64,000 nt of DNA from Brachynemurus nebulosus. Lineage: Eukaryota > Arthropoda > Insecta > Neuroptera > Myrmeleontidae. Under the pieces are notes generated by a model that saw only the letters and a program-made list of their open reading frames with translations, did no database searches and had not been told where the DNA came from. Positions 25,905 through 61,591 of the stretch are shown piece by piece; the stretch's first letter is position 1; every line of letters starts with the position of its first letter. The position numbers were made by a program, and so were the translations under genes. The stretch is from NCBI GenBank assembly GCA_035578155.1, contig JAPWDM010000001.1:168613498-168677497 (forward strand). The letters run 5' to 3'.

Positions 25905-26935
25905 GGGGAGAGCGGGGCTATACCGTACAGCGATGCTAAACCGTACACTCATTTTTCGTGTCTAGATTTCAAGCTAGACAAGTCTAATCGTTGTCGCAAC
26001 CTGGCGCCTGACCGCGGAATATCACAGGATTGAGTTCGTTCCGCTGTGCGTATAAATGCCAATATGACGGTGAAAAAACTTGTTTTTATTATTTCTCTTA
26101 TAATTTTGGGGCACTGCCAAATAAGAGTTGGGTGGAGAACCTTTACTTATGAGCTAATAGCGATAAGATCATGAGAAATTACTTTTCTTAAGCTCTCTCT
26201 TGATCACTACTGAAGACTAGTTAGGCGACGGAATTTGAGATTAGGTTATGAAACTCCCACAAGGTACAGGATGGGGCTAAACCGTACAGAAGTGTACGAC
26301 TTAGCCCCAAATGCTTTAATATGGTAACATTAATAAATTGTAGTTGATGCAGGAAATACAATAAAGTCTGCCGAGTCTGCAAATAATTTTACTTGTGATT
26401 TTTGTTTAAATGTATAAACTTTAAATAAAATACTTTCGTTCTCTAAAATTTATCACTTTTTTTGATAAAAGTTAAGCTAACACTTTTTATACTTTTATAA
26501 GCTGAACTAAATATACGGATAACACAAGTTACGTTATGTTGTTTCTTAGTTGAGTCGACAATAAATAATAAAAATGTGTTTTCTACAATAATTTATTGCA
26601 TTACTCTTATTTACTTCCTTAACAAGATGATTTTTTTACAATAATTTATTGCATTACTCTTATTTACTTCCTTAACAAGATGATTTTTCTACTGTACGGT
26701 ATAGCCCCTCCTACCGTACGGAATAGTTCCGACCCCCGGGGCTATTTCGTACAGAGACACTTTTTTGTAATTTAATTTAAATATGTAAACAGTGGAATAA
26801 TTCAAATTTCTTTGTGTGAAATCAGCAGCCAATTGTCCAAATTATATATTGCTAATTTTCTTATAATTTTATGCTCTATATTAGATGAACAATAACAGCT
26901 CTCCCTTAAGTGTACGGCATAGCCCCGCTCTCCCC
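25905..26935. mobile_element. GGGGAGA-family TA element, copy 1 (motif CTATACCGTACAG)
   Basis: TA at 25903-25904 and 26936-26937 flanks termini GGGGAGAGCGGGGCTATACC and their complement. Its private motif (GGGGCTA-ACCGTACAG) recurs at the left end, at about 26273-26310 in both orientations, at 26692-26755 in both orientations, and at the right end. The interior has lost coding capacity. A 53-bp tandem duplication lies at about 26585-26690. It matches the spacing plan of four other elements in this window. Confidence 0.85.
26585..26690. repeat. 53-bp tandem duplication
   Basis: Two nearly identical consecutive copies starting ACAATAATTTATTGCATTAC (first at 26585, second at 26638), inside GGGGAGA-family copy 1. 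Confidence 0.85.
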
Positions 26936-26937
26936 TA

Positions 26938-28730
26938 CTGAGATTCAGCCCTTAAAAACTTAAAACCTTTTTTTAAAGCCCCGATCAACCGGACACTCAT
27001 CATCAGTTTTGAAACCATCAAAATGGCAAATCGCTTGTGGACTTTCAATTACATTTCGCTTGTAGACATTCAATACCGAAGATGAAAGGAAAAATTCGAC
27101 TTCCGTAATGGGGCTCCGCTGCTCACGGCGTTTTATTTTTTAACAGTGCTTAAAGAAAATTATAAATTACCATAAACTGAAAACAAAAATTACTCAAATT
27201 AATAGATTATTTACAATTTATAACTATTTTTGTAAAAAGATTACGTTTTGGTTTATAGTGTTGCACCACTAATAAGACATATCTTTTTGGTAAGGGTAGA
27301 TACAAACATAAATAAAACTATACAGTTATTAAATTGTCATTTTATTAATAAATAAATAAATACAAACAAAATACATAATCTTGAAGTTAAATTTTTATCT
27401 GCCCATTAATTTTACATAAAAGACGCCACTGAAATGATGTGTCATTTTAACCTATATTTTAATTTTTGCATAATTTTATTTTTTACAATATTTTTAAAAA
27501 TTTTGCCGTTATTATCACATATTTTGAATAAAAAACGAATTCTTTATCTATGTAGAGTAATTCCTTTTTCGGTATTTCCTTTACTTTGTGTAATGCCAAA
27601 ATTTGTATTTTTCCGCTTATTATAAACTTATTTTTCAAATTAAAAATTTAGAAAAATAAATAAATTTTTGCTACAAATGGTTATATTTATTGATAAGTAC
27701 CTACCACATTTACTTACCCAAATATTATATTTATGGAGTACTATGTTCATTAATATTGTTTTAAACTTAATTTTTTGTAGGACTTGATCCTGTGTGCCTA
27801 TTTATCGCGTGATTGTGTGCCTATTTACTCTTTTGTTTCTTATTTTTTGTAGCACATTCAAATAAATCTACGTATTCATTCTAACATATCATATTATACT
27901 ATACCTTATCTCTATCTTAAGAAATAGTCTCCATCCATATTCTTCTATATCGATGGTTTGCAACTATTTTATCAAATGAATAAGTTTAAACAAAATTCTG
28001 GAAAAGTTTGTCTATTTGATTTAATTAAACTGTTACGTTAAAAGGTAATCTTAAAACAAACTTAATTGTTACATAAGCAAATTAGCAACAGCGTAGAACC
28101 ACTTCAATGTCCGCGCGTGTGCCATTAGGAAGTTAACGAATGATAATAACTCTGACTGAATTATACACTAACCGGTCGTTTGTTATTTCAGAAGTTTTGT
28201 CAAAAATCTTGCTTAGTTAAATTGATAATAGGTATACCTACTCTCTTCATACCGTGTAGGTAAACTATTTGTTATTTCGTACAAAAAAGATTCAGGTAAA
28301 GAACTTGGTGCTAGTCAGATGGTTCATAATATTTTACCATACTGTTCATTTCTCTCAATTACCTTCGTTAGATAAAAGTAAGTTATGTAATCTCTTATTT
28401 AGAAAGTCCATAATTTTTTATATGCATTTCTTTTTTAATTTTTTCTTTATGATCCCAATTTTTTTTTTTAGATATTGAATTTCGGAGGTGCACGTGTCTT
28501 TTTATTATAATATATCCTTAAAATAGATTTATTCAGGGGTTTAGCGGTTTGTGGTTTCACACTGGCTTTATACAAAGCGCATCCACGTACATTTTTTTAG
28601 ATTATATGTATATATGCTCTTATAAGTTAACAATTACAAGCTACATATATTAGTTACAGTAAATTGAAAATAGTACATCTTGGATTTAGGTATAATTAAT
28701 TAATTAACAGTAATTTACATGTTATTCTTT
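26938..28730. other. No recognisable gene
   Basis: AT-rich sequence. Hydrophobic frames near 27434 and 28269 are short, lack motifs, and fit the base composition. Nothing supported. Confidence 0.5.
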
Positions 28731-28735
28731 AAAAC

Positions 28736-28800
28736 AGGGGCTCTTAAAGTGCAGCCCGTGAGCTAAATATTGCCCAAGAACTCAAAAAATGCGATTCACG
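28736..28800 (+). mobile_element. Possible hAT terminus
   Basis: CAGGGGCTCTTAAAGTGCAG then CCCGTGAGC resembles the generic hAT start CAGGGG-(n)-GCGGCCCG. No matching right end or duplication was found nearby, so this is at most a solo or truncated end. Confidence 0.35.
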
Positions 28801-29875
28801 ATGCTAGATCGTCTGTAATCTCAAATTTATTAAAATTATTTACTAACATTCAAAAAAAAAAAAATAATAATAATAATAAACCTAATTAAATAGAATATGT
28901 TTTATTATTACATAAGTTTTTATATCAATGTGGATCAATATTTCTTACTATGCGAATTACTTTTCTAATTGATTTGATGATCTACTTTTACACAAATCAG
29001 GTTCTTAGGGTAAAACAACTACGGTAGCCACTATTAAACTGTGCACTACCAAAGTGTTACAACCAATATTACCTTTACCACTTTGGTGTGACAAACACAA
29101 TCAAACGTTGCATGTAAGTACACGCAGAATGTTTTTGTTATTGTCGTAGTACAGGTACATAGTAGTAAACTATTTACTGGTGTCTACATATTTTTTTATC
29201 ATCTCACTATGAAACTGTGATTTTAGTCCCATGCTGTAACACTTTCATAGTGCCGACTGTACATGTAATTTTTGTATTATCTTGTAATAACGATTTTAAA
29301 AAAAAAAAGAACAGTTTTAAAAACTTATGAGCATCTTCAAATTTCATTTACTTCTAGCATCAAAATTACAGTTTTTGAAGCGTTTAAAACATTTGTTATA
29401 CGTGATGACGTCGACATGTTCAATTTTTTTTCTTTTTTAAATTAATTGTTACGACTGTTGATATAATAATTTACATTTTCTTGTACTGTTCTTGCCAATA
29501 GTTCGCTCAGAAAATATGATTTATTGTCCGGATGTAGTTTTTCTGTTAAGTTGTACATATTCCTATTTTCAGTATAGAAATGATTACCTAACAGTACTTT
29601 ATTTCTGTTTTTAGTTTCAGATAGACAAGAGTCTCTATTCTCCTGTTAAAATACAAAAAGAAGTATCAAGTATTAACTTGCTTAATAAAAATAAATATTA
29701 AAATTGTCCTCAAAACTAATATTTCGAAGGTTCCATTGCGAGCATCATAAATTAACTAGAACAAGCAATATTATATTCTTTGAGCAGGAGAGATGCCGCA
29801 GTACCCATAGTTCGTCCGTTGATTGATAGATAGCGCTATTAGTGGATTATATGTTTAAAATAAATTATACCATAT

Positions 29876-30080
29876 TTCAGATACAATTGATCATGAGTTT
29901 TCGTTAAAAAATTAAATAATTCTTATATTCGAAACAAATCAATCTTCTATTCTTTTCTAAAAATAAACTGCAAATTTAAAATTTACCTAAATGCAATAAA
30001 AAAAGAGATAAAGCCAAAAAAACGGAAATTATTTAAATTCAAAGTGACGAAGCATGGTTAAATTTAACTGAAATGAACCA
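29876..30080 (+). repeat. Dispersed repeat, copy 2 of 2
   Basis: Nearly identical to 2530-2734 and in the same orientation. It sits in the 5' part of GGGGAGA-family copy 5 and accounts for that element's extra spacing there, so it is younger than that element. Confidence 0.75.
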
Positions 30081-30456
30081 TACTTATTTAAGCTGTATAT
30101 GGTAACATTTATGATTAATCCATCAGTTTAGTAATTATCCAACTTTTTAATTATTGAAAAGTAAGTTTTTTTTCAACATAATATTTTATCAAGTATTTAA
30201 TTCATTAGAATTTAAGAATGTATATTTCATTGTTTCAATGAAAATAAGTTTTGTTATTAATTTAAGTATATTTTAAAAGTACTGTATTAAAATTTAGGTT
30301 AGAATTCCGCACTATGCTTGCTATAGAAACATGCGGCATCTATCCCAACAGAACGGAGAGATGCCGCATTTAAAGTTGGTATAGATGTCGCATCATGTTA
30401 CATGTTAAAAACATAGATTTACACCTTAATTATGCAATTTTTTTGGACTGTAAATT

Positions 30457-30673
30457 ATGCCACGTAAATATAAAAGATCCATTAATGGACCAAGAAGAGC
30501 TCTCATTATAGTGAAGATAACGAAAATAATGATGATTGCCTGTGGATTGAATGTTTTGAAAAGTACTCAGAAACAAAAAAAAAGTTTACTGGTTAAGATG
30601 TATAAAGTGCCAAAAATGGTTACATATGGCATGCATCATGTATGGAGATGTGTGTAAAATGCAAAATTTTTAA
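30457..30673 (+). pseudogene. Pogo/Tigger-like transposase, deleted to its two ends
   Basis: An ATG at 30457 starts MPRKYKRSINGPRR, a basic start typical, from memory, of pogo/Tigger-type transposases with a CENP-B-like domain. Within about 15 codons the meaningful reading moves to another frame: an acidic stretch (SSHYSEDNENNDD), then CLWIECFEKYSE, a stop, and in the third frame RCIKCQKWLHMAC ending TAA at 30673. The Cys/His pattern (C-x4-C, C-x2-C, H-x2-C) suggests a PHD-like C-terminal zinc finger. I infer an internal deletion that removed the HTH and DDE domains, followed by frameshifts. Confidence 0.55.
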
Positions 30674-30919
30674 TATGAACTATGCGGCGTTTCTCCTTCT
30701 TTGATGCGGCGTCTCTCCTATAGGTGTGGGAGAGACGCCGGTTTGCAGGCTCTACAAAAATGTTAATTATGAATCCTTTATGAGTCAAGATTTAAAATTA
30801 TTTATAAATAATTTTAAAGAACAATGTTTACATTTATTTTGTAGCAAATTTCAAATCAATTAAATGCATACTTTAAGAATGATCAAGTGTTTTCAAAATG
30901 TGCGGCATCTCTCCCGCAT

Positions 30920-32220
30920 TCACCCTATGTATATCTGATTCCAAACCAAGATATGCCATTTCCAAATAGTTTTACATATGTCTGTATTTAATGTGTACTT
31001 ACACTGCAGGTAATATTCACCACTTACACACGCCACATCGGTGTGAAAACCACTCCGGATTTCCAACATCGCCCGCCGTCTTGCTGTTTGCTGAACGGAT
31101 ATCACGGATTGCTAGACCGCAGCGGACCGTTGTCGTTTTCTTATTGCCCACTAGCTAGCTACCCTATATAGCTGCTTTACCCGCCAACCGCCACTGGTGG
31201 CCACTGCAGTCGGTTATGGACTAGCAACAAGAGTGTAAATATTCTAAATACATTTGTATGTATGTCTGTCTGTATTTACCGACTTAACGTTCACCTCGTG
31301 TGGTCATGGTTGTACCTACGGTACAAATCGATAGTTTAATGAAAGCCCATAGTGTAAACCACGTTTACAGTTTGGAGACAAGATGAAGCACCACCACCAT
31401 CAGTTTTGTAACCACACTATTAATATATATTTAATATTCTGTGTCACCTATTTACAAATCTGTGTAAGTAATTTAAGGATTAGTAGCAAATGGATTAAGT
31501 AGTACATATAATATATTTGGGTGTTTAATTAAATTTAAATTATCTATATCTTAGAGAATATTTTCGGATTGCTATACCTTGTAAAGAGTCATTATTTTGA
31601 TTGGCAAAATTTATAAGTTTTCATAATCTCTTTTAGATAGTTTTAGGTATACAGAAGAGTGAAAAGATATTATCAAAATTATAATTGTATTCTTTTACAT
31701 CGCGTCTGTGGGTAACTATCTGCAAAAAGAAAATGTAATATGTTGAAACTTATACTATGTGTATGCTCTCAAAATCCTTTTTTCTCACCTTAATCTCGAG
31801 AGTGGTGACATAAGTAGAGTTGCCACCCATACATTTTAAGAGTAGGTACTTTTTTCTTTAGTTGAATGGACTTTACTTTTTTGTCCAAAATTTTAAGAAT
31901 ACTTTTTAACTACATAAACAAAGTGGCAAGTTTAAAGATAGGATACACAAAATGTTAAATGATTCAATATGGAGGCTGTATAAAACGTCATATCGGATTT
32001 CCGACGAAAACATATATAACTGAAACCTATACCTATAAGTGGGAGCAAGTGGGGTATTAGAGTGCACGTCTAAAAGAGACGTAAAAGTGGTCGTTGCGAT
32101 TACTTAATTATTAATTGTTAACTATTAATAATTAATGTCGTATTAATTATTAAATTCAAAAATAATCCACTGACTACATTATGTGCACATTGTTTTACAT
32201 AAACGTTTTTGTTTTAAATC
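30920..32220. other. Relatively GC-rich unique stretch, no gene assigned
   Basis: 30990-31400 is less AT-rich than its surroundings and does not match other parts of the window. A minus-strand frame near 31105 has no ATG and an in-frame stop just upstream. It could be single-copy host sequence, but nothing identifies an exon. Confidence 0.4.
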
Positions 32221-32224
32221 GTTT

Positions 32225-32418
<194 letters not shown>

Positions 32419-33337
32419 GAATCCATTTTTAAATTCTAGAATCGAAACCTACCAACCTTCATTATATAAGAACTATTAGGTGAAAGTCAGGTTCATTTAA
32501 CCCTTTCGGTACTAGTGGTACTTAGAAGTCCAGTTTTTTTCTGTACAAAAAATACCAGAAATATGTGCTGTTTAAATTTTCCTTGAGGTCGTATATTATT
32601 GGGATTTAAATACATCGTTTTATCTATATCATAAGCTAAATACGAGAAAAAATGAGAAATTTATGGGGAAAAAAAATTTTGAACTTCAAAGTAGCACTAG
32701 AGTAAATAAACACCATAGTTTTTCGGAATTCAGTTTATTTATATTAATGTTTAACATTCAATTTTTCATTAATCTAAATTATAGAAATTAATTAATAGAT
32801 CAAATATTTTACCTAGCAAAAAATACCACTTCATTTTCTTAATTGTGACAATTCTTTCGAGCTTAATTACTCATTTTCAAACAAAATTATTCTGTTATTT
32901 ACAAATATGGAATACCATAAAGTAGTGCTCAAATTAGTGAATATTATATAAATTTATTCAGTAGAACTCAAAAGAAAAAAAATTATTTTACATGATAATG
33001 TAGAAAACGGTTTTTTTCTTTATTACAATAGAAGTATTCTTCACATGCTACCCATTTAGAAAATGATATTGAGTCGAGACCTAATGCACGGCAAATTTCG
33101 CACCTTCCTCTCAAATTATCAAATATCAAAATTTTTGACATTGGAGGCCTCACAGTTCTGATAATCGCCACAAGAAATACGTAAACTTAACTTTATAATT
33201 AGTGATAATTAATTAAAATAAAAATTTAATTTAGTTGTTACTTTGACATCGTTAAAATTATTTTGTTATAAGCACCGAGCACAAAAAACAAAACCTCTCT
33301 TAACAACTGAATGCGTGCAGCTACCGGAAAATGCACA

Positions 33338-34893
33338 CACTGAGAAAAAAATACAGTAATTTTTACTGAAATTTCTGGTAAAAAATTACTGAACTCTCTG
33401 GTAATGCGGACATAAGTGACAAGCTAAGCAAAAAGTACGATAATTTATAGTAAAAATTGTAAATTACCCTATAGCTCAGTAAAAATTACCGTATTATTTG
33501 AATCGGTGAGTGCAGAAACCACATAAGTCAATAAAATTTGAAAATTCATTTTTTACACTCAATGAGTTTATCTAAGGTAAAGAAACATTGTGTAAAGAAG
33601 CCACATCAGTCAGGGTTTTATTTTTGAAAATATAAAGACTTGGTAAATAGTATTAAATGCAGAAAGCACACAAGTCCATGACTTATGTGCTTTCTGCACT
33701 CAACGCTGATAAAATTGTCAATTTCTTCACGAGATGGTTTTCTATTATTTAGCTGTCATTTTTAACATTAAATTTAGTCTGTACACATTTTATTTTCTTG
33801 TTGTCTTATTTGTTATTAAAAAAGTATATTAATTTGTCATTAAAAAAGTATATTCAGTAAAAGCTGTGGTGTATGATATTTGTTGAGTGCAGAAACAACA
33901 TAAGTCAAATTTATTTTTTTTATTTTATAAAGAAAACTTTATTTGAAAATGAGAAAATAATATTTTGAACACATTTCCGTAATATGAATATACAGTTTGA
34001 GTTGAAAAATTTTTCCCAAATTCATATTTTGGGAACAGTATACTGTTTTTTCGTTCTCCTGTAAAATTTCAAAAATGTGACTTATGTGATTTCTGCACTC
34101 ACCGATTCATTTATAAATAAGGTTTTTTTTTATTTATTAATAAATAATTGAATTAAAATAGTTTAAAAGGATATTGATAGAAGGGTAAGCATTAAAATCA
34201 AATTATTAATATAGAAAAAATTTTTTGTGGTTTTTTATTATTTGTGGAAAAAAATATATAAATTCTTTATTTGACATATTACATGATAAAACAATAGGCA
34301 CATTACAATAATTTGTATAAAAACATATTTCAATTAACATAATATCAATACATATAAAAAAACATACAAGAATTAAAATGAAAACTAAACAAAAATTCAT
34401 GAAACACAACAAACAAACACTTCATAAACATCCAGTCATGATGGTTGTTATTGCACAACTGAACCAAACCGTCCAAACCTGCTTAGTTGCTATGCCTGTA
34501 ACTCGTGTTGGTCGTGTTAGACAATGCTCGGTGCGCTTGCGTGCTTGTTTTATTTATTCTCATGTCTGTGTGATGCTTGGTATGCAATGTTATGTGAGAG
34601 GGATGAAATGCACAACGACTCAGTAAAAATTATTCAATGTCCACTATAATTTTACAAAAAATTAAGTAAATTTTCCCGGTGTCCACATGAAATTTTACTA
34701 GCCCATCGAATTTTACGCAGCTGTATAGGAAAAATTCTTAAGGTGTACAGGAAAAATTTTCAAATGAATCGTAAAAAATAATGTTTGAAACGCATTTTTT
34801 ATATTTTTGCTTAATAATTTCCTACGGACTGGTCACTTAAGACTCGTTTACCGGAGGCAGCTCAGTAATTTTTACTGGAATTTTTTCTCTGTG
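33338..34893. mobile_element. Inverted-repeat element with CAC-GAGAAAAAA ends
   Basis: The left end CACTGAGAAAAAAATACAGT and the right end, read inward, CACAGAGAAAAAATTCCAGT continue together through AAAATTACTGA. Ends of this type are widespread in insects; the flanks do not give a clear duplication and the superfamily is uncertain (CACTA/Chapaev-like or hAT are possible). A second inverted-repeat element (33501-34107) is nested inside. Confidence 0.6.
33501..34107. mobile_element. Nested inverted-repeat element with iterated terminal motif
   Basis: Termini AATCGGTGAGTGCAGAAA and its complement. The motif GAGTGCAGAAA-CACATAAGTC occurs at about 33507, in degraded form at 33590, as a head-to-head pair at 33657-33702, again at 33886, and inverted at 34076-34107. 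Non-coding; the exact boundary and duplication are unclear because the flanks are themselves symmetrical. Confidence 0.7.
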
Positions 34894-35187
34894 CATGAGA
34901 GAAGCTCAGCTGACAAGTACCGAAGACATTTAAGTTGCGTACTAGTGAATACAAGCATTAAAAACGTGTACTTTTACACCGCTCCACCCACCCACTAGCT
35001 CCCATTACCCCTCGATTCTCTACATCCGTATTTCACATAAACGAGACACACATTTCAAAAAGTAAAAAAGTATACACTAACTGTAGATAGATACATTATC
35101 AGCACAGCATCATGATGATATTACTAGCTAACGGCAAAATATACGAGTATATATTTTATAAAATTTCATTAAGTATATGAACAAATA

Positions 35188-35385
35188 CAGGCCCGACGAG
35201 AGGGTCGGTGTAGCCGAAGTTACAGCACCGGGGCTCGGGTTTGAGTAGGGAGCCCATAGCTGTCGGTAGAGGGCCTGGAAAAAAAGTTAATCGTTTTTTT
35301 TTCACTGACCACTTATTTTTTGGGAAGAAATTTTTAAAAAAATGCGGTTTATTCTTGGGGCCCACGTTTTCTCTGCACGGCCCTG
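35188..35385 (-). mobile_element. hAT-like MITE with perfect 8-bp duplication
   Basis: Flanked by AACAAATA at 35180-35187 and 35386-35393, identical in all eight bases. Ends are CAGGCCCGACGAGAGGG and CTGCACGGCCCTG. It has the same ends as 2884-3070 in reverse orientation. GC-rich, 198 bp, no real coding sequence. Confidence 0.88.
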
Positions 35386-35577
35386 AACAAATATATAGTT
35401 TTGTACCAGCGATAGAAGGTTCGGTTTCACTAACAGGACCAACTTTAGATTTTCAAGTATAAATTAATATATTATATCAAATAAAATATTGAGGAATTGT
35501 AATCTATTTTTGTGCTTGGATTAATGCTCACTTAATAAGAAAAGTGCCTTAATTTTGTATACAAAAATAGGTTACAG

Positions 35578-35932
35578 TCTACTTAATAAATTTCTAACAC
35601 TGACTGACTGACAGACAACGCACAGCCTAAATCGTTGGGTTTAGAAGAATGAAATTTTGCACAGGAGTTCCCTATGTAACGTCGGTGAGCACTAAGAAAG
35701 GATTTTTGAAAATTCGTCCCCTAAGTGGGTTAAATAGTTGATGAAAATTTGTATGTAAATACGTCATTTTTAAAATTAGAGATATATAAAAATATGTTAC
35801 TATGGCTATTAAAATAAATATCTTATTTAATAAATCGTGTAAGTTGGTATTTTGGCTTTTGAAAAACATTGAAAGTAAGCAGAAAGTGAGCACCAAGATG
35901 TCGATGGGAAATCCCATCGGGTATACGGCTAT
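35578..35932 (+). mobile_element. Short Helitron, family B, copy 1
   Basis: Begins TCTACTTAATAAATTTC and continues ACTGACTGACTGACAGAC. It ends with a hairpin GATGGGA-A-A-TCCCATC then GGGTATACGGCTAT, a CTRR-type end with the last base changed. A head-to-tail sister copy follows directly. Confidence 0.65.
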
Positions 35933-37480: not shown

Positions 37481-37486
37481 ATTTAA

Positions 37487-39626: not shown

Positions 39627-40613
39627 GGGGAGACTGGGGCTAAATGGTAAATTGTCAAAACCCTATTTCTGCATTATCTTTTGAATGTCAACAGTTACAA
39701 AGCTGACATTTTGACCTAGGGCTTTCCTCACAAGAAAGCAAACGGCGTTAGTAATGTGAATTTCATCTGAACCTTATGGTGTACATATCCTTAAATGTGT
39801 TTCGATAATGTCGAAGCAATTTTGTTTGCTGCCATACTTTTCATCCGAAATGGAGTTTTTTCAGACATATCCTCATCAAAATAAGTATATTAGTTCATTT
39901 ATGTATTGTGAATATGAATCTTTAAAAATTTTTTGTATATTTATCATCATCATTTGTGTGATCGTTGTCAAAACTCAAAACGTACCTTGGGGCCAAGTGT
40001 TTAAACATTGGTGGGGCTAAATGTTAAATTTTTTTTTTTTATTTTCTTCTATTTTCTCTTCTTATTTGTCGGCTTATCGGCTTAAGCGAAGCAAGTTGTG
40101 AGTATTCCTAACATATTTGAAATGTCAAAATCTACTAATTTAAATATCTAAATTTCTATATATTCGTTACCTGCTGTATTATAAAATCCTCTAAAATTTT
40201 TAGTAGATTTTATTTCAAAAAAAAAAAAATAAGTCAAACTGATAATTTTTCATTTTCCTTCTTGTAAAAGTTGTGCTTTTCAATAAATGGATGTTTTTTT
40301 CACATCATTCATCGTTTTCATATCCTTTTACATATTTACTTTGTTATACAACTCAACAAGTGGTTTCAGTAGACTATAGAGATATGTTGAAACATTCAGT
40401 TTCACCCATTTAACATTTAGCCCCACTATGGGGCTAAATGGTAAAAAAATTTAAGTTCAGAAAAAATGAAAAAACATACATTTTTCCGAATATTATTCCG
40501 AAAAAGCTAAGAAAAACTCTAGCTTCTGTACAACTCTGATTTATTGACAAAAAATTTGTAAATTATGCTAAACACGGAGTGCCGTATTGTTACATGGTCA
40601 TATTAGCCCTAAG
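39627..40613. mobile_element. GGGGAGA-family TA element, copy 2 (motif CTAAATGGTAAA)
   Basis: TA at 39625-39626 precedes GGGGAGACTGGGGCTAAATG. The private motif GGGGCTAAATG(G/T)TAAA recurs at 39986-40030 (two copies) and 40403-40447 (a head-to-head pair). The right end is decayed; ATATTAGCCC near 40602-40609 sits where the spacing plan predicts it. Non-coding. Confidence 0.75.
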
Positions 40614-49240: not shown

Positions 49241-49299
49241 AATTCATCAATTATGAGCAGTTTATGATAAATAATTCGTTATCTTTGTTAGTTCTCGAA

Positions 49300-51690: not shown

Positions 51691-51698
51691 AACGTAAA

Positions 51699-52400
51699 AT
51701 TCTGGAATATTCTAATCGTCAACTAGCAGAGATATCAAAAAACAGATTTCACCGTTGAATTAGTCATTTAAGATGAGGTTAAACAGTGTAGTTTGACAAA
51801 AATTCTAGAATATTCTATTTGTCCAGTAGCAAAGATATTGAAAAATCAATTCTACCATTTAATTATCCATTGAAAATGAGGTCAAATTACACATTTTGAC
51901 AAATGTTCTGGAATATTCTATTCGTCAACTAGCAAAGATGTTCAAAAACCGACGTTGCTATTGAATTGGTTACCAAAAAAGAGACCAAATAACACATTTT
52001 GAGAAATGTTCTAGAATATTTTATTTGTCAACTAACAAAGATATTGGAAAATCTACGGCACCACTTAATTGTCCCACTGAAATTGTAACCAAATGTAACT
52101 AATGTAAACCAAATGTCAGATTTTTACAAACAATTTTTGCTATTTGGCGAATAGAATATTCTAGAACATTTATTAAAATGTGCTATTCCGTCTTTTATTC
52201 GATGACCAATTAAATGGTGCAATCGATTTTTCGATATCTCTGTTACTTGACGAATAGAATATTCTAGAATTTTTGTCAAAATGCGCTGCTTAATCTAATT
52301 TTCAGTACCCAATTCAATAGTGAAATTAGTTTTTTGGTATCTTTGCCAGTTCGCAAGTAGAATATTCTGGAATTTTTGTCCGCTTCCGCTATTTGGCGTC
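51699..52400. repeat. Repeat of about 102 bp with heat-shock-element core, array B (inverted)
   Basis: Four units in reverse orientation have cores at 51699, 51802, 51905 and 52008 (the last with one altered unit); three in forward orientation have cores at 52153, 52256 and 52359. Spacing is about 103 bp within each set. All except 52008 match the three-unit heat-shock consensus perfectly. The two sets face each other, so the array is itself an inverted repeat. Same family as array A. Confidence 0.88.
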
Positions 52401-52843
52401 ATTTACACTGATGAATGCGAGAGTGAAGTTACTATTTCGACAGTTTTCTAAAAGTCGTCATGAATATTCATTAGTATAATATTCGGTTTGTCTCTTAAGA
52501 TAATATTGTTTTAAATAAATTCAGGTAAATAATATTTACCAACCCCCGAGACAAAAGTTCACCGACGCCCCTGATCTTCCGATTTTACGTACTTCCCCTT
52601 AAATTTGCACCGACCTCTACGTAAAATTGGATTTGTGGTGTATATACAGATAATACATTTTAAGTTAGTGTTTATTAATTTCATGAATTTATGAATAATT
52701 TTGAAATGTCAGTTTCATAAATACTCATTAAATTAACACCTGTAATGTTACGTAACAATATATTTATTAACCCCTTTCCCCATCGTAAACATAACACACT
52801 AGTAATATAAATTAAAAATCACAAACTGATTGAAAAAATTATC

Positions 52844-52916
52844 TGGATCGGCCGGGAATTGAACCCAGGATCTCTCGGTAACTAGCCAGGCGTGTTGAGC
52901 ATTACACCAACGATCC
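52844..52916 (-). tRNA. tRNA-Thr(AGU)-like sequence, probably a SINE head or pseudogene
   Basis: The minus strand folds as a 73-nt cloverleaf. The acceptor has six of seven pairs (GGATCGT/CCGATCC), the D stem is GTGT/ACAC, the anticodon stem CCTGG/CCGAG has one mismatch, the loop CTAGTTA gives anticodon AGT, the variable loop is 5 nt, and the T stem CTGGG/CCCGG has loop TTCAATT. The D loop AATGCTCA lacks the usual GG. A T6 run follows 8 nt after the discriminator base. A partial second copy with the same downstream text lies at 53755-53835, so it is repetitive rather than clearly a working tRNA. Confidence 0.5.
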
Positions 52917-53160
52917 TATGCCTCGACAGCCGCCCGATACAGAAATCATTCAATCACTTATGTGTATTGGTACTCTCTCTAATGCGAGAAACAGTTACAA
53001 TTTTTCTGTTTCAAATATTATGGAGTGCCTGTGAGACATTACTATGTATGACAAACTTTTGTTTGCATTCCAACACACGCAGTATTCATATGTTCACTTA
53101 TCGTTCAGCTAAACTGATACTTTCAGCACGCGATTTCTTCGGTATAGAATGACCAAAAAC

Positions 53161-53739
53161 TAGGGGATGATCGATATTAGAAAAACATCATTGTTGACAT
53201 CGATGTTAACATCGAGTCAAAAGTATCGATATACGATATATATCGAAAGAAAGACATCGATGTTCGAAAACATCGATGTTTATGTAGCAAAATAAACAAC
53301 CATTATATTCTATTATTTTATTTGTTAAAAATTAACATTGCCAGTATTTATTTGGTACACTTTTCAAAAAAGTCACTTTGTTAGAAGTTTCCCTTTTAAT
53401 ATGTTCCTTTGTTGATACAAATGCTGCCCAGCTTTTGAAAAAAAGTCTCTCTGAAGCTGTTGAAATTGCTGTGAAACACGAATATTTAATGACAATTTAT
53501 TTCAAGTTTGGATAAGTGGATCCTAGAACTTACCATAAAAGTAATGGATCTTGTTTTAAATCAGCTACAGGACTTTTTAAACACTGGATAGTTTAGAGAG
53601 TAATATCGATGTTTCGATATTATTCTCGTAACATCGATGTGTCGGTGTTATCGACGACATAGCATCGATGTAAAAACATCGATGTTGCCCCCCTAAACAT
53701 CGATGTTTTTCTACCATCGATGAATATCGATCATCCCTA
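53161..53739. mobile_element. hAT MITE with perfect 8-bp duplication
   Basis: Flanked by CCAAAAAC at 53153-53160 and 53740-53747. Ends TAGGGGATGATCGATATT and AATATCGATCATCCCTA are inverted repeats. Subterminal regions on both sides are packed with ACATCGATGT words (more than ten). The centre is AT-rich with no intact frame. It lies between the two tRNA-like repeats. Confidence 0.92.
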
Positions 53740-53754
53740 CCAAAAACTACATGT

Positions 53755-53835
53755 AAATTACAAATCACAAAGTGATTGAAAAAATTATCTGGATCGGCCG
53801 CGAATCGTACCTAGGATCTCCCGATAACTAGCCAG
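53755..53835 (-). repeat. Partial second copy of the tRNA-like repeat
   Basis: Minus strand, from CTGGCTAGTTATCGGGAGAT through CCGATCCAGATAATTTTTTC to CACTTTGTGATTTG. It matches the anticodon arm, T arm, acceptor 3' side and the tail of the copy at 52844, but lacks the D arm and the acceptor 5' side. Confidence 0.7.
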
Positions 53836-54566
53836 TAACACTAGTAATACTTGATATTACTGAACTTTCCTACAATATATTATAATATAGAACTTTAGAT
53901 ATATAATTTAGAAAATATTAGCCTGTATTATTTCAATCTTTTTCCGCTTGCAATAAATACTAGGAAAGTAGGGACGGTATTTTTTGTAAATTTCTAGCCG
54001 TAATCTTAAACTAACGTAACTAAAAGTTAAAAACATATAGCTTTGAAAATATATTTGATATTTGCTTTTTGATTTGATATCTCACCTGACCTTGTTTTGC
54101 CAATTTCAACTTCAAATTTCAAAACCATTTTCAAATAGCAATACACATTTGTTTTACCAGTCGCCGTGACATACGGACGGACGGACAGGCATCGAAGCCT
54201 CGCCAAATTCATTTCCTTTCTACTTTTTAAATACGAAACCTAAAAAAAAAATAAATAAAAGTAAAATAAAATCACAATTACCTATATGAAATTCTTTCAT
54301 TTACTTTATTTCACAGTGCCTCCACCGTAGTGTTTTGTAAAACATAGAAAGATTTCGTTTCTGAAAATTTGAATAGATTAATTGAACTGTTCGGCAGTCT
54401 AGACAGGATTAGTAAAATACTATCGTTATTTACTGACAAAAATAATGAATAGTTAGTTCAGTATTACCAACGCACAGTCATACGGATTATGTACTAATTA
54501 CGGATATACATATTTTATACCAAATATCCTTTGTATAACAGAAGATATGTCTAGAATTTTACAGTA

Positions 54567-55466
54567 GGGGAGAAGTGGTATGAAAGGGACACGTATTGAA
54601 AGGGACAATTCAAATTACGCGCCAAATACAAATCCCGCCAAATCAGATGTATTTGTGTTGTGTAGAAGCACCAATGCAGATATGTTCATTCCTGACTTGA
54701 TGCTATTGTCATTTCAAACATGGTAATACTGTGCTTGTAAATTTTTTTATGTTCCAAAGTAATTTTTTTAAAAATTTTTCGGAACGTTTTCTGATATTTT
54801 CTAATTATTTTTTGAAATGTTTGTAGTTATATTCAGTTAGAGTTAGTTATTCTTTCAACTAGAGGTCTGATATCTTTTAAATAAAATTATAGATTTAGAG
54901 ATTAAATTTTTAATTTGGGTGTGATATTTATGAAAGAAACAGAGCAAACAGTTATGAAAGGGACTACCCTTAAGACTAGTGATTTCGAATTAGTTTTATT
55001 TGAAAATCCACATGTCACAATTTTTTCTCTATTATCATGTTTTCTGAGGGTCAATAATTAAATTTTTTAAACTTTGTTTCAACTTTTCGAATAAAAATAA
55101 AAAAATAATCAAATGAAAACAATGATTTTAATTATTGATTACTAAAACAACGCAATTAATAAATGAACCGTATGTCTTATGTACATAAGGTTGAAGCTTG
55201 AACAACATGAATTATATTTAGTATTGTGCCTTTCATAAATTATCATGTCCCTTACAATAGTGTCTATTGATGAAAGGGAGAAAATGCACTTTTTTAAAAA
55301 CTGAGAAAAATTACGACTAATAACAAAAAAATGTTTATTATTGGTTTTTATTTCAAGAGTAAGATAACTGAAGTTTCTAATTCCGTTCATAACTATTTAC
55401 TTCGTTATCTCGTTTAATTAGAAGAACGCTTAAAGCAAAAACGTTCCTTTCATGCCACTTCTCCCC
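54567..55466. mobile_element. GGGGAGA-family TA element, copy 3 (motif ATGAAAGGGAC)
   Basis: TA at 54565-54566 and 55467-55468; termini GGGGAGAAGTGGTATGAAAG and complement. The private motif TATGAAAGGGAC recurs twice at the left end, at 54924-54963, at 55227-55283 in both orientations, and at the right end. No coding sequence left. Confidence 0.85.
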
Positions 55467-55479
55467 TATTGGCAGTATT

Positions 55480-56780
55480 TTTAGTCAGGTGATTGGTTGG
55501 TTTTAATCCTTATGCATTCATTGATAAATAACGAAGACTGAACACATTTCTGAATTGACGACTAATATATTTGTATCATAAAAAAAAATCACTTCTCATG
55601 GCAAAGCCACTTCAAAATCAAGCCAAAACAATTTTTTTTTTTTAATTTCCAAAAAATAAAATTTTACTATCTGCACACATTGTACCACGAAATGTCCACA
55701 GGATTTAACGCACGCTGAATATTTAAAGCACAAAAGCGTATTATTTTCTCATTGTTAAAAATGTAATTATAATCAGAAAAGATTGGTAATACGCAGGGGA
55801 TTTGAGGCTTTATTTATACATCATTATATGCTCCAGACTGGCCACACTGTACCAACCATAGGTACGGACGCCATTTCTCCTGGTAACAAAAGTGTACAAA
55901 ATTGTTCAAAAAAGTTTTTTCGTAATCATTAACATTTTTTATTAATATTTTTTCCTCTTTTTTTGTTACAAATGATATACCATTATGAGTTGTCTGTCTT
56001 CTGCTTTTGGTTCATGAATTATGTGAAAACCGCACAAGTTAGAATGAAGTACAATATAATGAATAAGAAAGAAAATTTTTTCGTTCGTGTTTGAGTAAAA
56101 GCATCAAGTGACATAAATAATGAAAATTAAAAACAAAGTCTATTTTTATATGATAAATTATTGATCAGATAAAAAAAAAAAAAAGATAAAATTTTTGATT
56201 GTGTAAAAAACAGGTCATTTAGAAATTTTAAAATATTTTTTTATATTAGAAAAATACCTAAGACAAATTTTTTAATGATTTTCTTTTTCTATTCGTCCGA
56301 AACATATGCTTCCTTTAGGACCTGCCATTTATTTAAAATCACCAAAACGATTTTTTTAATTATCTTGATAAATTTCGCAGTAAAAAGGAGTGCTATGAAA
56401 GGAGATAAGCAAAAGTAATCTAATCGTGTCTCTAAGTAAACCTTAACCATATTAAAATTCATCATGATTTCTTGCAGAACTTTTAGAATTTTAAAAATTA
56501 ATTTAGCCATTATGAAGAGGGTTTTAGTCTTAAGGTTAAATATTCTAACTTAGTTAATTTAGTCCTAAATAATTTAGTCATTAATGTAGTCTTAATTTGT
56601 TTCAGAATTGTCTGGGGAAATTCGATTGGACTCAATTGAAGGTAAGTTTGGCAACCTACTTTGTTTTATTTGCCTAAACAGAGAGCGAGCTACAGTTGCT
56701 TATGTATTGATGTATTAATTGTCAAAATATTAATAGCAATTTGTCATTTGATCATAATCTTTCATGACCGTGTATTCTAC
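55480..56780. other. No recognisable gene
   Basis: AT-rich; 55825-55910 is slightly less so and does not match elsewhere in the window. No exon signal that I can support. Confidence 0.45.
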
Positions 56781-56787
56781 GTGTTAA

Positions 56788-57623
56788 TCGATACATATAA
56801 TAAAACTGTAACGAGACCATTTCTGTACATGGAATATTTTCTGAAAATTGTACTGGCACTCTAAATAGTTATCGATGTAGATATCAAAACAGCGATTTTT
56901 AAAATTTTTGTATGCCTATCTGTTCACGTATCATGGAAAAACTACTGGATGGATTTTAATGAAATTTCGTGTGATGATAACCTATTACCAGAGTCAACAT
57001 CTAAGATACTTTTTTCTTCGGGAAAATGTCTCATTCCCACGGGAAAATAGAAAAACCCTTTTGAGTATATGCACACATTACGCAAAAACTGTTGAACGGA
57101 TTTTTATGAAATTTGGTGTGGTGATAACTTATTTCCTGGGTCAACATCTAAGGTACCTTTTACTGCGGAAAAATGTCTCATTCCTACGGGAAAATAGAAA
57201 AACCATTTTGAGTATATGCACACATTACTCAAAAACTGTTGAACGGATTTTTATGAAATTTGGTGTGGTGATAAATTATTACCTGGGTCAACATCTACGA
57301 TACCCTTTACTCCGGGAAAATGTCCCATTCCGACGAGAAAATTGAAAACGCATTTTGAGCATATGCACACATTACCCAAAAATTGTTGAATGGATTTTTA
57401 TGAAATTTGGTGTGATGTTAACTTATTACCTGGGTCAACATATAAGGTACTTTTTACTCCGGAAAAATGTCTCATTCCCTTGGGAAAATCAAAAACCATT
57501 TTAAACATGTGCATGCATTACGCAAAAATTATTGTTCTATGTAAATTTTGTATAATTATTATTACACATATATACTTCTCATTTATTTTATAACAATGCG
57601 AACGACGTCGCGGGTACAGCTAG
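56788..57623 (+). mobile_element. Helitron, family A
   Basis: Starts TCGATACATATAATAAAACT after A and ends GTCGCGGGTACAGCTAG. A GCGA...TCGC stem precedes the CTAG terminus; the base after it is G instead of the usual T. Inside are four tandem units of 147 bp. Non-autonomous. Confidence 0.78.
56930..57540 (+). repeat. 147-bp tandem repeat (49-codon units)
   Basis: The phase of GTTGAACGGATTTTTATGAA recurs at 56944, 57091, 57238 and 57385, exactly 147 bp each time. Because 147 is a multiple of 3, a frame can stay open across units (56908-57345), giving a repeated KTVERIFMKFGVVITY peptide. The same units occur, diverged, in the Helitron at 45970-46950. I read this as non-coding Helitron filler. 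Confidence 0.85.
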
Positions 57624-58137
57624 GATTACTAATAAATTAGTCAAAAATCGCTCATGTGCACATGGCATTGTAATATTTTTTTTTCTTTTACGGTTATGAA
57701 ATAATACGCGCAAGTCAAACAATTACACAATTTAATGTATGAACTTGATGCATGGACCTTGATGATCCTTTTTAAAAGCTTTTATTTAACTTGCGATGTT
57801 AGTATGTTGGTTTAGATCAAATTTTGAAATCAAAATTTAGACAGTTTCTAATTGAACTAGAGGGTTCAAATTTTGCATACGTGTATAACCTTGATGACAA
57901 TGCAATATTGTATAGTTAGTTTCGTCCTAAATGGTCCCAAACCAAAATTGTTGATTTTTAGTCCTGTGCAACTTTTTGATATTTCGAATTGTCAAGTATT
58001 GTCCATTGATTTTATATTGCAATTTTTTGTTTCCATAGTTATGTTTGATTAGGGTAAATTAACCGATTAAAATATAGGTAAAAAAATACTTCTTTAATTT
58101 TTTTTTTAAATTAATTGTAATCAGTAGCAAATTTAAA

Positions 58138-58455
58138 TTAAAGTAAAAAAATGTTATTTTAAGAAAAAGCTTTTATTTAAAAATGGGCTTAAAAAAATAA
58201 AATAACTTTTGAGTGAAGTTTGAAGCAATATGCAACAGAATTTATAAAAGCTTGAGGCGTTTAATTACGTTTGGTAATTAATAAAAAGTAAAATAGCTAC
58301 AATTGTATCCAAAACAGAAATAGTTAATGATAACGCCTCAAGCTTTTATAAATTATGTTGCATATTGCTTCAAACTTCACTCAAAAATTATTTTTTTTTT
58401 TTAAGCCCATTTTTAAATAGAAGCTTTTTCTTAAAATAACATTTTTTTTACTTAT
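58138..58455. repeat. Hairpin repeat of about 318 bp
   Basis: Arms of about 125 bp (58138-58265 and 58331-58455) are inverted copies with few mismatches, including AGCAATATGCAACA and AAAGCTTGAGGCGTT. The spacer is about 65 bp. No flanking duplication was identified. Confidence 0.85.
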
Positions 58456-58459
58456 TTTA

Positions 58460-60050
58460 TTATTAGTTCGGCATAAAACAATTCGCAGTTACTATAAACT
58501 TTTTACTGAACGGATCAAAATTACTCATGGATTATTTTTAATCAGTAAACGCAAAAGTAGCGAAGTGGTATTTAAACAGAGTCAAATAAAATTTCCTTCT
58601 TACACGCGAGATGACATTATTGGCAAACGATCCTTTTTAAAATATTCACAATGTTTCATTGTGAAACATGTTTTATTGTTTACCCACTTTCCCTACCTAT
58701 TCAATTTTGCTAAATAGTTACTTTAAACAATCTCTCTATGAACTCCCACAACATAAAATTTAATCCTTTCACAAAAAAGGCATCCAAAATTTGATTTCAT
58801 GGTTCAGTGAACACTTTATGTGTCTATTGTTCCTATCAGAAACTAATACCTACACAATTAATTTTTGAAAATCAATTACTGGGCTTGTAAATAGGTAACT
58901 ATATAAGGGAAATACAATTTCCACATCGAACAATATGGTTTTTGTTTCGGAAACAATTTCCCTCATTAATTTCACTTTGTATTGAATAAGGTTTTTTATA
59001 TAACATGTGAAAGAAAATTTAAACAAGAAATTATTTCCTTACCCCAAATAACAAACAACGTCTACACGCCTACACGCCTACGTGCAAAATAAAAGACAAA
59101 AACCGACATTGAACGAGAGAGTTAGTTGGAAAAAGAATATTTCTGATAAGGGAAATTCTATCATAATATTGTGCTTGTGTTTCCCGCAAACATCATAGTT
59201 TTTCTTTCTATAACCAAAGTATAGTATAAAATTTTAATAAATATAGGGTTATAATGTGGTTTCATTCTAGTTCGATACAGCCAGCTTAGATTTCTCTGTG
59301 AATTTTAGCACATCAGCTGGTTAAGATCTCAGACAGAGAAACAAAATGATATCACTTGACTCCATATCTACCTGTCATAAATTTGACTTTATGAAAGCGA
59401 AAGCGACAACGTTCTGGCTGGATACTATGAAAAGAAGACGAATTTTTCGGCAGTATTTTTGAAAATGTGTCACTTGGTTGGTATCTGAAATAAAGGATCT
59501 CACATTTATATGTTTTGTCAGTTGAATATTTAAATAAAAAAATAAAAAATGAGATAATATTTTTTTGTTCTAAGGTCATTAAATATTTTCAAGTATATAA
59601 AATTTTCATAATAGTAAAATGTTACTCGAATTTCTTTGTGTTTCATATGTAATTTTTTTTTTCAAACTAATAATATTGTATTTTATGCAAGTCAAAGGTT
59701 TCCTGATACAGTTAGAGTTTTATCCGTCTATCCGCTACATTTGTACGTTTATAGCTCTCACATACGTACAAACACAATACATTATCATATTGCAAATATT
59801 ATTTGGCTTGCATCCAATTTATTTATCTGCAAATTGTATATTTATGTAAATCATGGTTACACTTTTTGCAAAAATAATGTAAACGCTTCTTAACAAAATT
59901 CTATCGAATAAGTAATGTGGCTTGTCTAGAGCATCAAATCGAATTTATACATAGGTATTGCGCTCAAATGGTTTAAAAGTTCAAAATATTTTGATAAAAC
60001 CAACGTACACAAGTTATACAACACACACATACATATGTGTATGAAAATAG
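58460..60050. other. No recognisable gene
   Basis: AT-rich, no internal repeat. Two overlapping hydrophobic frames near 59619-59893 are Phe/Tyr/Ile-rich as expected from composition, show no family motif, and are not called. Confidence 0.5.
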
Positions 60051-60058
60051 GTATTATA

Positions 60059-61591
60059 GGGGAGAGTGGGGATGTTTGGGACGTGGGAGGTTTGGGACAC
60101 CTTCATTTTATTTTGTTACGTTGGCTGCAGTGAGCCAATTTTCCTCCAGAATGAAGGACTAACTTCAATATTAGTGTACCTTGACTTCCATGAAGTTAAA
60201 TTGGAAGACGCTGCTGTCATTGAGAAAACTGTGATTTTTCCTCAAAAAGTCTGGGTTTTTCAACCCGAAGTTTCAATTCACTCTATCTTCATTTTACATC
60301 ATCAAGTAAGTGTAAATTATTTATCAAATGACCACATCATTAAGGTTTATTTTAATGAACAAAACAGCTTTATCTTTTTAAGGTTATGATTTTAGAACAC
60401 ATTTTAACTTAACAGGCACATTTGGGAGGTTTGGGACAGCTCATGTTGGGAGGTTTGGGACAGTGTCCCGAACCTCCCTAGAGAAAAATCATGTAATCTT
60501 GCGAGATTGTATGTTATATAATACACTCTCAAATAAGCTTACATGATTTTTTTTAACTGAATCTGTAACAAAATAACCTTAAAATGTAAGAAAATATTTT
60601 CATTTTTAAACGTTTAATAAAACTATATTCGTCAATAACTGAAAAAACCTATAATTTTTCGGAAATTTACCAACCAGATCAAAAAGAAAAAACAGAAGAA
60701 AATTGAAAACATTGACAGCTCATTAGAGAGTTCGTCAGACATTTCCTCTGGTGAAAGTATTCTGAATGTTTCAGATGAAGAGTATGCTGATCTTTCAGAC
60801 TTTCAACCGAAAGATTTGAAACACGGCACATTTGTTTTGGTGGAGTTCAAGGGAGGAGCAAGACTCTCTACTAAATATAGGTATGCCTGTATTGTACAAA
60901 GACCACCTGATGAAGATGCGCCTTCTGAAGAAATAGAAGTCAGTGTTATGTCCCTCAAATGTATTGATTCATCAAAGAAAACTTTCATTACTCAAGAAGA
61001 AGACATATCTGTTATGAGAATTGAAAGTGTGTTAGGAATTTTACCAGTTCCGAGAATTTCAATGACAAGGGACAGATTGAGATATGTGTTTTGTCAGCCA
61101 ATAAATATTTTTTGTAAATAGTAACCTTTCCATGTAATCAAAAACATGAATTTTTTGGAAGAAAGACATCATGTAGCGGGATTTAGTTATAAAATTTTTC
61201 ATGAACTTGACTGTTTTAGAATCAAATAATTATGTTATTATTATTATTTTAGTTTCTAATGCCTAAACTATTGTTAATTTAATTTCAATTACTTTAGTAA
61301 TGCAAAAATACAAAGATTTTGAGTGATATCTTTTAGTTTTATTATATATACCAAACCTCCCCGAGCACAGTCCCAAACCTCCCCAGAGTAGGGAGGATTG
61401 GGACATTTGATATACTTTAAGAAAATTGTTATTTTAATTCAAATTTTTATTATTTTAACTTTAAAAAAAATATCACAATATAAATGAAAAGTTACTTTAC
61501 CATTTGCAATTGTTCTGGTTCTTTAAGCTAAAATTATAAGACGTAGAAAAAATAATCACTGAAAATTGTCCCAAACATCCCCACCCTCCCC
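60059..61591 (+). mobile_element. GGGGAGA-family TA element, copy 4 (motif GGTTTGGGACA)
   Basis: TA at 60057-60058 and 61592-61593. Termini GGGGAGAGTGGGGATGTTTG and complement. The private motif GGGAGGTTTGGGACA recurs at the left end, in a cluster at 60422-60480 (both orientations), in a cluster at 61351-61406 (both orientations), and at the right end. It keeps the C-terminal part of a protein. Longest and best-preserved copy of the family here. Confidence 0.88.
60690..61121 (+). pseudogene. C-terminal part of the GGGGAGA-element transposase
   Basis: The open frame reads a Lys-rich stretch (QIKKKKQKKIENI) and an acidic Ser-rich linker (SSLESSSDISSGESILNVSD, EEYADLSD). It then has a compact domain starting DLKHGTFVLVEFKGGARLST, with YACIVQR, EEIEVSVMSLKC and FITQEEDISVMRIESVLGIL. 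It ends LPVPRISMTRDRLRYVF before a TAA at 61121. From memory this resembles the C-terminal region that follows the DDE domain in insect pogo/Tigger-type proteins. No DDE or HTH domain remains upstream. No obvious start codon, so I treat it as a truncated gene. Confidence 0.55.

Follow-up and report, generated by a model that had tools for sequence, protein, structure and literature searches.

Drosophila pogo, a Tc1/mariner element, uses TA as its target. In 1999 Wang, Hartswood and Finnegan reportedly described a 12 bp sequence in the pogo terminal repeats that is recognised by the transposase, and we know of no inner clusters of such sites in that element. Excerpts of PMC7325037 give DD35D for pogo groups 33-40 and note that Tigger-like elements carry a CENP-B box in the 5' TIR. 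Excerpts of PMC10368747 describe asymmetric end use by the hAT element Hermes, in which several short near-end repeats are bound by the N-terminal domain and more domains contact the left end. The system of PMC7776569, as far as excerpts of that paper go, has internal sites whose spacing is unequal between the two ends.

The window analysed here is a 64,000-nucleotide stretch of the Brachynemurus nebulosus genome (contig JAPWDM010000001.1, forward strand, positions 168,613,498 to 168,677,497). It contains five TA-flanked DNA-transposon remnants, of which copy 3 has no right end. Judging from sequence, these are very probably pogo-like cut-and-paste transposons (IS630-Tc1-mariner group) in which the element's own transposase recognises a private motif of ~16 bp, arranged in an asymmetric array, through a psq / CENP-B-type helix-turn-helix region at its N-terminus.

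Five transposon remnants and their sites

Own-motif sites in the window copies were located by searching with 17-mers, allowing up to five mismatches; the two inner clusters of copy 4 come from 17-mer and 13-mer searches. Distances are from the left (+) or right (-) end, and a bracketed sign gives the strand of a site.

25905..26935, + strand: copy 1, non-autonomous, 1031 bp, TA on both flanks, motif GGGGCTATACCGTACAG
25914..25948, + strand: copy 1, tandem sites at left terminus (+10, +28)
26273..26308: copy 1, inner-left cluster, +369 direct, +388(-) inverted
26692..26754: copy 1, inner-right cluster, -244(-) and -222(-) inverted, -198(+) direct
26910..26926, - strand: copy 1, right terminal site (-26)
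29776..30925, + strand: copy 2, relic, 1150 bp, TA on both flanks, head type GGGTGAATGCGG, motif CGGGAGAGATGCCGCA
29785..29801, + strand: copy 2, left terminal site (+10)
30331..30393: copy 2, inner-left cluster, +556(-), +578(+), +602(+)
30457..30654, + strand: copy 2, open frame starting MPRKYKRS, 67-codon open stretch, downstream of inner-left cluster
30682..30743: copy 2, inner-right cluster, -244, -222 inverted, -199 direct
30900..30916, - strand: copy 2, right terminal site (-26)
39627..40613, + strand: copy 3, motif TGGGGCTAAATGGTAAA, TA on left flank only, right end decayed or lost
39635..39651, + strand: copy 3, left terminal site (+9)
39988..40028, + strand: copy 3, inner-left cluster (+362, +386)
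40409..40445, both strands: copy 3, inner-right pair, head to head, 40409(-)/40429(+)
54567..55466, + strand: copy 4, 900 bp, TA on both flanks, motif GTGGTATGAAAGGGACA
54575..54607, + strand: copy 4, tandem sites at left terminus (+9, +25)
54929..54965, + strand: copy 4, inner-left cluster (+363, about +383 to +387)
55225..55281: copy 4, inner-right cluster, -242(-), -221 inverted, -198 direct
55442..55458, - strand: copy 4, right terminal site (-25)
60059..61591, + strand: copy 5, 1533 bp, TA on both flanks, motif GGGGATGTTTGGGACA
60068..60100, + strand: copy 5, tandem sites at left terminus (+10, +26)
60423..60479: copy 5, inner-left cluster, +365 and +389 direct, +405(-) inverted
60639..61118, + strand: copy 5, 160-codon open frame, left over from the C-terminal part of a pogo-like transposase
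61346..61406: copy 5, inner-right cluster, -246(-) and -224(-) inverted, -202(+) direct
61566..61582, - strand: copy 5, right terminal site (-26)

The original prediction had described a private motif repeated at four fixed places in each of five copies with GGGGAGA-type ends. Fixed placement holds in copies 1, 4 and 5 and in the left half of copy 3 only, and the places are more than four, usually two left terminal, two or three inner-left, three inner-right and one right terminal. GGGGAGA-type ends are found on all copies but copy 2, whose head is of a different type. The predicted TA is present on both sides of copies 1, 4 and 5 and on the left of copy 3; the flanks of copies 1, 2, 4 and 5, with TA on both sides, agree with the pogo family of Tc1/mariner. 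At the right end of copy 3 (40613), neither TA nor a clear terminal site is present. In copy 4, the sites at +363, -221 and -198 were recovered by a 13-mer with three or fewer mismatches, in addition to the 17-mer set.

Two claims were reversed. Copy 2 had been thought to have a decayed right end; that end is preserved and reads GGGTGAATGCGGGAGAGATGCCGCA, and it is about 10 bp at the left that have decayed. The 205-bp insertion proposed for copy 5 is unneeded, as this copy fits unaltered, and it is copy 2 that is displaced. In copy 2 the inner-left sites match those of the transposase-bearing locus L088 (+348(-), +370(+), +394(+)) in order and spacing, shifted inward by ~208 bp. The copy 2 open frame is likely, from the MPR/MPN starts of relatives, to be a relic of the transposase N-terminus, while copy 5 retains the C-terminal domain.

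Of 30 loci fetched by means of the copy 5 open frame, 28 have both ends, and 26 of these 28, which include the window copy, have TA on both flanks (exceptions L031 and L049). The frame encodes a beta-rich domain that is confidently modelled in the predicted structure. A fold search with this domain gave nothing at E<=0.001, and MazF-like barrels, the best fold match (0.085), were not accepted as kin. A PDB sequence search with alignment A1 returned weak matches only, none meaningful (best E 0.0042, a ribosomal protein).

The motif of copy 1 is common to L009, L011 and L017, that of copy 3 to L016, and that of copy 4 to L022, L026 and L028. No partner transposase gene sharing the motifs of the five window copies was found.

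The layout recurs across the home genome

In the 960-Mb home genome, TAGGGGAGA occurs 4583+4492 times, compared with 1242+1257 for the reversed pattern. Twenty further copies were selected solely by perfect TAGGGGAGA ends, and most of them have the same design, with a family-private ~16-bp motif at nearly fixed positions. Typical positions are +10, +28, +367, +390 and +405(inverted) on the left and -244, -222, -199(inverted) and -25 on the right, giving eight to ten motif copies per element in most families examined. The ends are asymmetric, because the second terminal site (+28) exists on the left only, with a right counterpart in 0 of 26 elements.

At seven inner slots, the own motif outscored every other-family motif in 22 of 25 elements and, in 23 of 25, each of 100 shuffles; these slots were defined from the very elements tested, and the blind 14-mer search on transposase-selected loci described below is the more independent test. 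L016 and L025 fail both comparisons and L023 fails that with other families. When own-motif matches beyond the first 26 bp were counted with family weighting, 64.6 of 81.5 fell in slots, versus 3.0 of 8.9 for other-family motifs in the same 26 elements (14 families), with slots making up 256 of 1816 positions. Inner-right matches are absent from L027 in this count, and L013, at 601 bp, is too short for both inner clusters. Motifs were taken by rule for the slot test (25 elements), the slot count (26 elements) and the blind 14-mer search, and chosen by eye for the 13-mer site search, the site positions in transposase-bearing copies, the Mantel test and the splice-signal count.

Terminal sites carry a base that is common to both ends and unlike the inner consensus in seven of ten tabulated families (ten of 14 families, leaving out W2, W3, L016 and elements with fewer than three inner sites). 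In non-autonomous copies, which carry no gene, the two inner clusters are mostly retained at unchanged distances. Among the first 100 of 9075 TAGGGGAGA ends there are 25 head-tail pairs under 3 kb, and just one is shorter than 660 bp.

Transposase-bearing relatives

A DDE_1 genome search yielded 1890 first-look candidates, and the 150 scored were led by Tigger-sized frames (often 526-528 codons) of another group; therefore, the L062 protein was used as the query instead. Sixteen loci representing 15 families (L081-L096) were picked for diversity from 64 matches to this protein. Their link to the transposase is the sequence match to L062, and the Pfam scan covered L059, L061 and L062, all of which score above Pfam's cut-off for DDE_1 (PF03184; 4.1e-24, 1.8e-22 and 4.5e-24, respectively). 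HTH_psq is above its cut-off of 20.4 bits in L061 (30.4), below it in L062 (17.3) and the L019 fragment (19.9), and unlisted for L059. HTH_Tnp_Tc5 reaches 21.8 bits in L061, just under the cut-off of 22.2, and 12.9 bits in L059. The second-to-third D spacing, counted in L062, is 35 residues (DD35D), in keeping with the DD30-35D of the pogo family, the IS630 similarity of this protein lies under the curated cut-off, and one homologue is annotated as 'tigger transposable element-derived protein 2-like'. L066 and L068 were set aside, having no Pfam match at E<=1 and only the C-terminal domain in common with the group, as was L070, with a weak DUF7869 match only.

Selection by transposase similarity thus retrieved uninterrupted pogo-like transposase frames that have other motifs in the same layout. 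A blind 14-mer search of the 720 bp upstream found a repeat matched by at most one of 60 shuffles in 14 of 16 loci, and in 13 of 16 the repeat is the terminal/inner motif. No such motif is present in that interval in L091/L092, which form one family with a pogo-like frame of 635/705 codons. Three transposase-bearing loci (L085, L094 and L096) are GGGGAG-headed, which ties the head of the window copies to the transposase. Altogether, about 30 distinct motif types share this layout, which is linked to DDE_1 genes with a probably psq-type N-terminus and to TA flanks.

In 12 tabulated left ends, the first inner site lies at +348 to +400 (median 369.5), and 11 have both left terminal sites, 17-20 bp apart. 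This table leaves out L061, L086, L087, L089, L091, L092 and L093, whose left end is uncertain or layout looser, and L059, whose left end is missing. The inner-left sites of L061, L086, L089 and L095 are spread more widely. All eight right ends have the terminal site at -24 to -26, and in L062 and L059 the inner-right cluster is downstream of the stop codon. As originally proposed, the inner-left cluster adjoins the coding part, just upstream of the transposase frame. A splice-donor-like sequence between the terminal sites and this cluster occurs in 13 of 14 transposase-bearing copies (3.5 expected from shuffles), and an acceptor-like sequence in the 70 bp preceding the ATG also in 13 of 14 (8.2 expected), with the left end of L093 assumed. 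The cluster is therefore placed in a putative 5'-UTR intron.

The N-termini can be aligned across 17 families. Motif similarity tracks DNA-binding-domain similarity among them (Mantel r 0.31, p 0.0014, kinship uncorrected), a modest correlation that common descent would yield too and that does not separate co-evolution from descent. These 17 remain from 21 transposase-bearing families or fragments once L073 (frameshifted N-terminus), L091 with its near-copy L092 (motif-less) and L019 (fragment) are left out. Near-copies of the 17 did not enter the test, and the domains of L083 and L093 begin at the match, with the start codon unproven. L082 and L087, for instance, resemble each other in motif as well as domain, as do L086 and L089. 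With relatives that bear other motifs in the same layout, and motifs that follow the DNA-binding domain, the predicted transposase recognition site co-evolving with the ends appears well supported.

Possible function of the inner clusters

We propose that an asymmetric array of about nine sites would position transposase on the element: on the left a tandem terminal pair and, further in, a cluster of inner sites, on the right an inner cluster, its last copy inverted, and one terminal site. Transposase would bind these sites, the array would build the synaptic complex, and motif and DNA-binding domain would change together. More tentatively, transposase on the inner-left cluster might also lower its own expression.

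The inner clusters could instead be mainly regulatory, with transposase or a host factor bound within the putative 5'-UTR intron and close to the 3' end so as to repress or shape transcription, and with terminal sites alone needed for transposition. The excess of donor- and acceptor-like sequences favours such a role, but gene-less copies mostly retain both clusters at unchanged distances, pairs under 660 bp are rare, and the inner-right cluster can lie beyond the stop codon, so that we regard this explanation as unlikely. Retention in gene-less copies appears to point to a role in transposition itself at least as strongly as to autoregulation.

It is far less probable that the inner sites are unselected and passively inherited, their concert reflecting a recent founder of each family. 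Sites are indeed common by descent within a family, so copy counts add nothing, and non-autonomous copies inherit whole ends. Across families, however, the motif varies while its places shift by no more than tens of bases on the left and by just a few at the right terminus, passive decay would alter sites independently of one another, and the match is own-motif-specific in 22 of 25 elements. Equally little credence is due to the idea that the motifs are sites for a host protein family, such as psq-type transcription factors. Host factors do carry psq domains (e.g. Dan, of the pipsqueak superfamily), but a private motif per family is not expected from a host factor, and the class of motif goes with the DNA-binding domain of the element itself, as the two pairs close in both illustrate.

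Returning to recognition by the element's own transposase, it is conceivable, though we offer this as speculation, that one genome holds about thirty or more pogo-like families with mutually private ('orthogonal') recognition systems. Each would keep the ~nine-site asymmetric array and carry specificity changes over to every one of its sites, perhaps in order to escape transposase-consuming non-autonomous copies, with terminal sites as a class of their own and inner-left sites doubling as an expression brake. The families form a natural series of transposase/site pairs in which geometry is nearly fixed and specificity changes. The series suits study of how docking sites change in concert, and makes it possible to test directly which recognition code psq / CENP-B-type domains use, how orthogonal transposases evolve and what part inner sites play in eukaryotic transpososomes.

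Comparison with known systems

Among the matches listed in the open-licence literature (titles and abstract openings), we found no description of arrays of this sort in pogo-like elements. The system of PMC7776569 resembles the window group in having internal sites spaced differently at each end, but according to the excerpts it belongs to an unrelated superfamily with an 8-bp target and has a single 10-bp site at each end besides a distinct subterminal repeat; the family-private motif series of the window group is not mentioned there. Hermes likewise has asymmetric ends and several repeats near them, the window sites being presumed binding sites, whereas it is of an unrelated superfamily with a BED zinc finger, an 8-bp target and a very short repeat. 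Tigger elements and CENP-B have the DDE_1 family in common with the window group, which differs in its GGG-type heads, probably psq-type N-terminus, subterminal arrays and long C-terminal extension with a beta-rich domain. Pogo matches in its TA target and DDE transposase and, probably, in its helix-turn-helix N-terminus and its short transposase-recognised sequence in the terminal repeats. The window group departs from pogo in its ~16 bp motif, present in eight to ten copies, some of them in inner clusters near +367 and -220, in the asymmetry of its two ends, and in having many families whose motifs differ.

Motif layout in the five window copies

The five TA-associated DNA-transposon remnants in the window were each examined base by base and afterwards scanned with their own motif, a family-private sequence of about 16 bp. 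The layout comprises terminal sites, an inner-left cluster (from about +367, counted from the left end) and an inner-right cluster (about −244 to −199, counted from the right end).

Copy 1, 25905-26935: own motif at matching places from both ends; TA on both sides
Copy 2, 29776-30925: own motif at −244, −222, −199 and −26; inner-left cluster shifted by about 208 bp from its place in the transposase-bearing locus L088, with order and spacing common to both; TA on both sides
Copy 3, 39627-40613: own motif at the left places and the inner-right pair; TA on the left only
Copy 4, 54567-55466: as copy 1
Copy 5, 60059-61591: as copy 1

The original prediction of motifs at the same places in all five copies stands, except for the inner-left cluster of copy 2 and the right terminus of copy 3. 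The right end of copy 2, described there as decayed, in fact conforms, and the TA ascribed to preserved ends of the other four copies also flanks this one.

Copy 5 is part of a recent burst. Both ends were located in 28 of the loci fetched, window copy included; 26 of these are 1528-1534 bp long, and the 20 among them that, like the window copy, measure exactly 1533 bp agree with it at 1515 to 1526 positions. Its C-terminal domain (60690-61118) is predicted to be beta-rich (mean pLDDT 87.6), and a fold search among solved structures gave no match at E≤0.001.

Elements selected by their ends

In the 960-Mb genome, TAGGGGAGA occurs 9075 times, compared with 2499 for its reversed control. Among the first 100 places listed, 28 head-tail pairs lie within 6 kb, versus eight tail-head control pairs, and 25 of the 28 fall within 3 kb (601-2087 bp, median 985). 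Sequences were retrieved for 20 of these pairs, most of which carry one motif common to both ends, with about a dozen families when grouped by eye.

These 20 elements and the five window copies were scored at seven inner slots. In 22 of the 25 elements no motif from another family did as well as the own motif, and in 23 none of 100 shuffles did. Across 26 elements from 14 families, 64.6 of 81.5 weighted own-motif matches beyond the end fall in slots covering 14% of positions (foreign motifs, 3.0 of 8.9). Because the slots were learned from the tested elements, this test alone is not independent. The L027 motif closely resembles that of copy 4, L022, L026 and L028 (AATGAAACGGACA and TATGAAAGGGACA), and its distinguishing C is present at all six motif-like sites in the expected places.

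Transposase-bearing elements

The copy 5 open frame has 113 genome matches, some of low identity within long open frames. One, L062, lies in a 3.15-kb element that occurs as four near-identical full-length copies; its 750-residue frame contains the DDE_1 catalytic domain and a sub-threshold match to the psq DNA-binding domain, and its own motif, GGGGTAAATGTAAACA, occupies the usual places. The same was found with three other motifs in L059 (without left end), L061 (left side looser) and L073 (frame broken). The L062 protein has 64 genome matches, many without stops, at just 26-33% identity. Named relatives of the transposases come from insects, including beetles, stick insects, an aphid and a planthopper. 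Pogo-group elements are highly abundant in this genome, where a search for DDE_1 yielded 1890 first-look candidates, 150 of which were scored.

L066, L067 and L075 (a partial copy), as well as L068 and L069, represent a different type of transposon-like element whose frames span 846-926 codons. The L066 and L068 frames have no Pfam match, and these elements have only a C-terminal domain of about 100 residues in common with the pogo-like transposases. By eye, L066 was seen to repeat a sequence of its own, CTACCCTGG, close to each end.

From the 64 matches, 16 loci (15 families) were chosen for diversity without sight of the ends, and the reading was confined to their 5′ parts. In 14 loci, a blind search for 14-mers yielded a repeat matched by at most one of 60 shuffles, and in 13 the best repeat was the terminal/inner motif. 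In L087 another repeat scored best, yet the inner pair GGGGTAACAAAAGCCA is there. The search revealed no motif in the 5′ stretch retrieved from L091 and L092, one family with pogo-like frames of 635 and 705 codons; either the sites lie outside this stretch or the family lacks them. With motifs given by eye, the first inner site lies at +348 to +400 in 12 tabulated left ends, and in 11 of these the terminal sites form a tandem with a spacing of 17-20 bp. On the right, a terminal site falls at −24 to −26 in each of eight ends, and inner-right sites occur from −255 to −190 in seven of them. L098 has no inner-right site reaching threshold. The GGGGAG head type seen in the window recurs in L085, L094 and L096.

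Site classes and possible function

In seven of the 10 tabulated families, the two outermost sites have one or more bases in common that depart from the inner consensus, often T replacing a purine; the differences of the copy 4 family lie in the lead that precedes the core, and three families have no such difference. Among 14 transposase-bearing copies, 13 have a donor-like sequence between the terminal sites and the inner-left cluster (3.5 expected), and 13 have an acceptor-like sequence within 70 bp before the ATG (8.2 expected). This placement suggests that the inner-left cluster probably lies within a 5′-UTR intron.

Divergence of the DNA-binding domains correlates with that of the motifs. 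For 17 transposase-bearing families, distances over the N-terminal 125 residues correlate with motif distances (r 0.31, p 0.0014, with r 0.22, p 0.013 for the psq half and r 0.27, p 0.006 for the second half), a modest effect obtained with motifs chosen by eye and of the sign also expected from shared descent.

Transposase binding to an asymmetric array is the most economical reading of these sequences. The transposase would bind the site array, which would assemble the two ends, and specificity would change in all sites of one element. Most non-autonomous copies retain both clusters, which favours a role in transposition; given the position in a probable intron, an additional regulatory role may exist as well.

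The pogo transposase reportedly recognizes a sequence of 12 bp within its terminal repeats. Subterminal arrays that are asymmetric have been described in hAT elements (PMC10368747) and P elements (PMC7776569). Among the papers listed in an open-licence literature search, titles and abstract openings describe no pogo-like elements in which family-private motifs form arrays at nearly fixed places.
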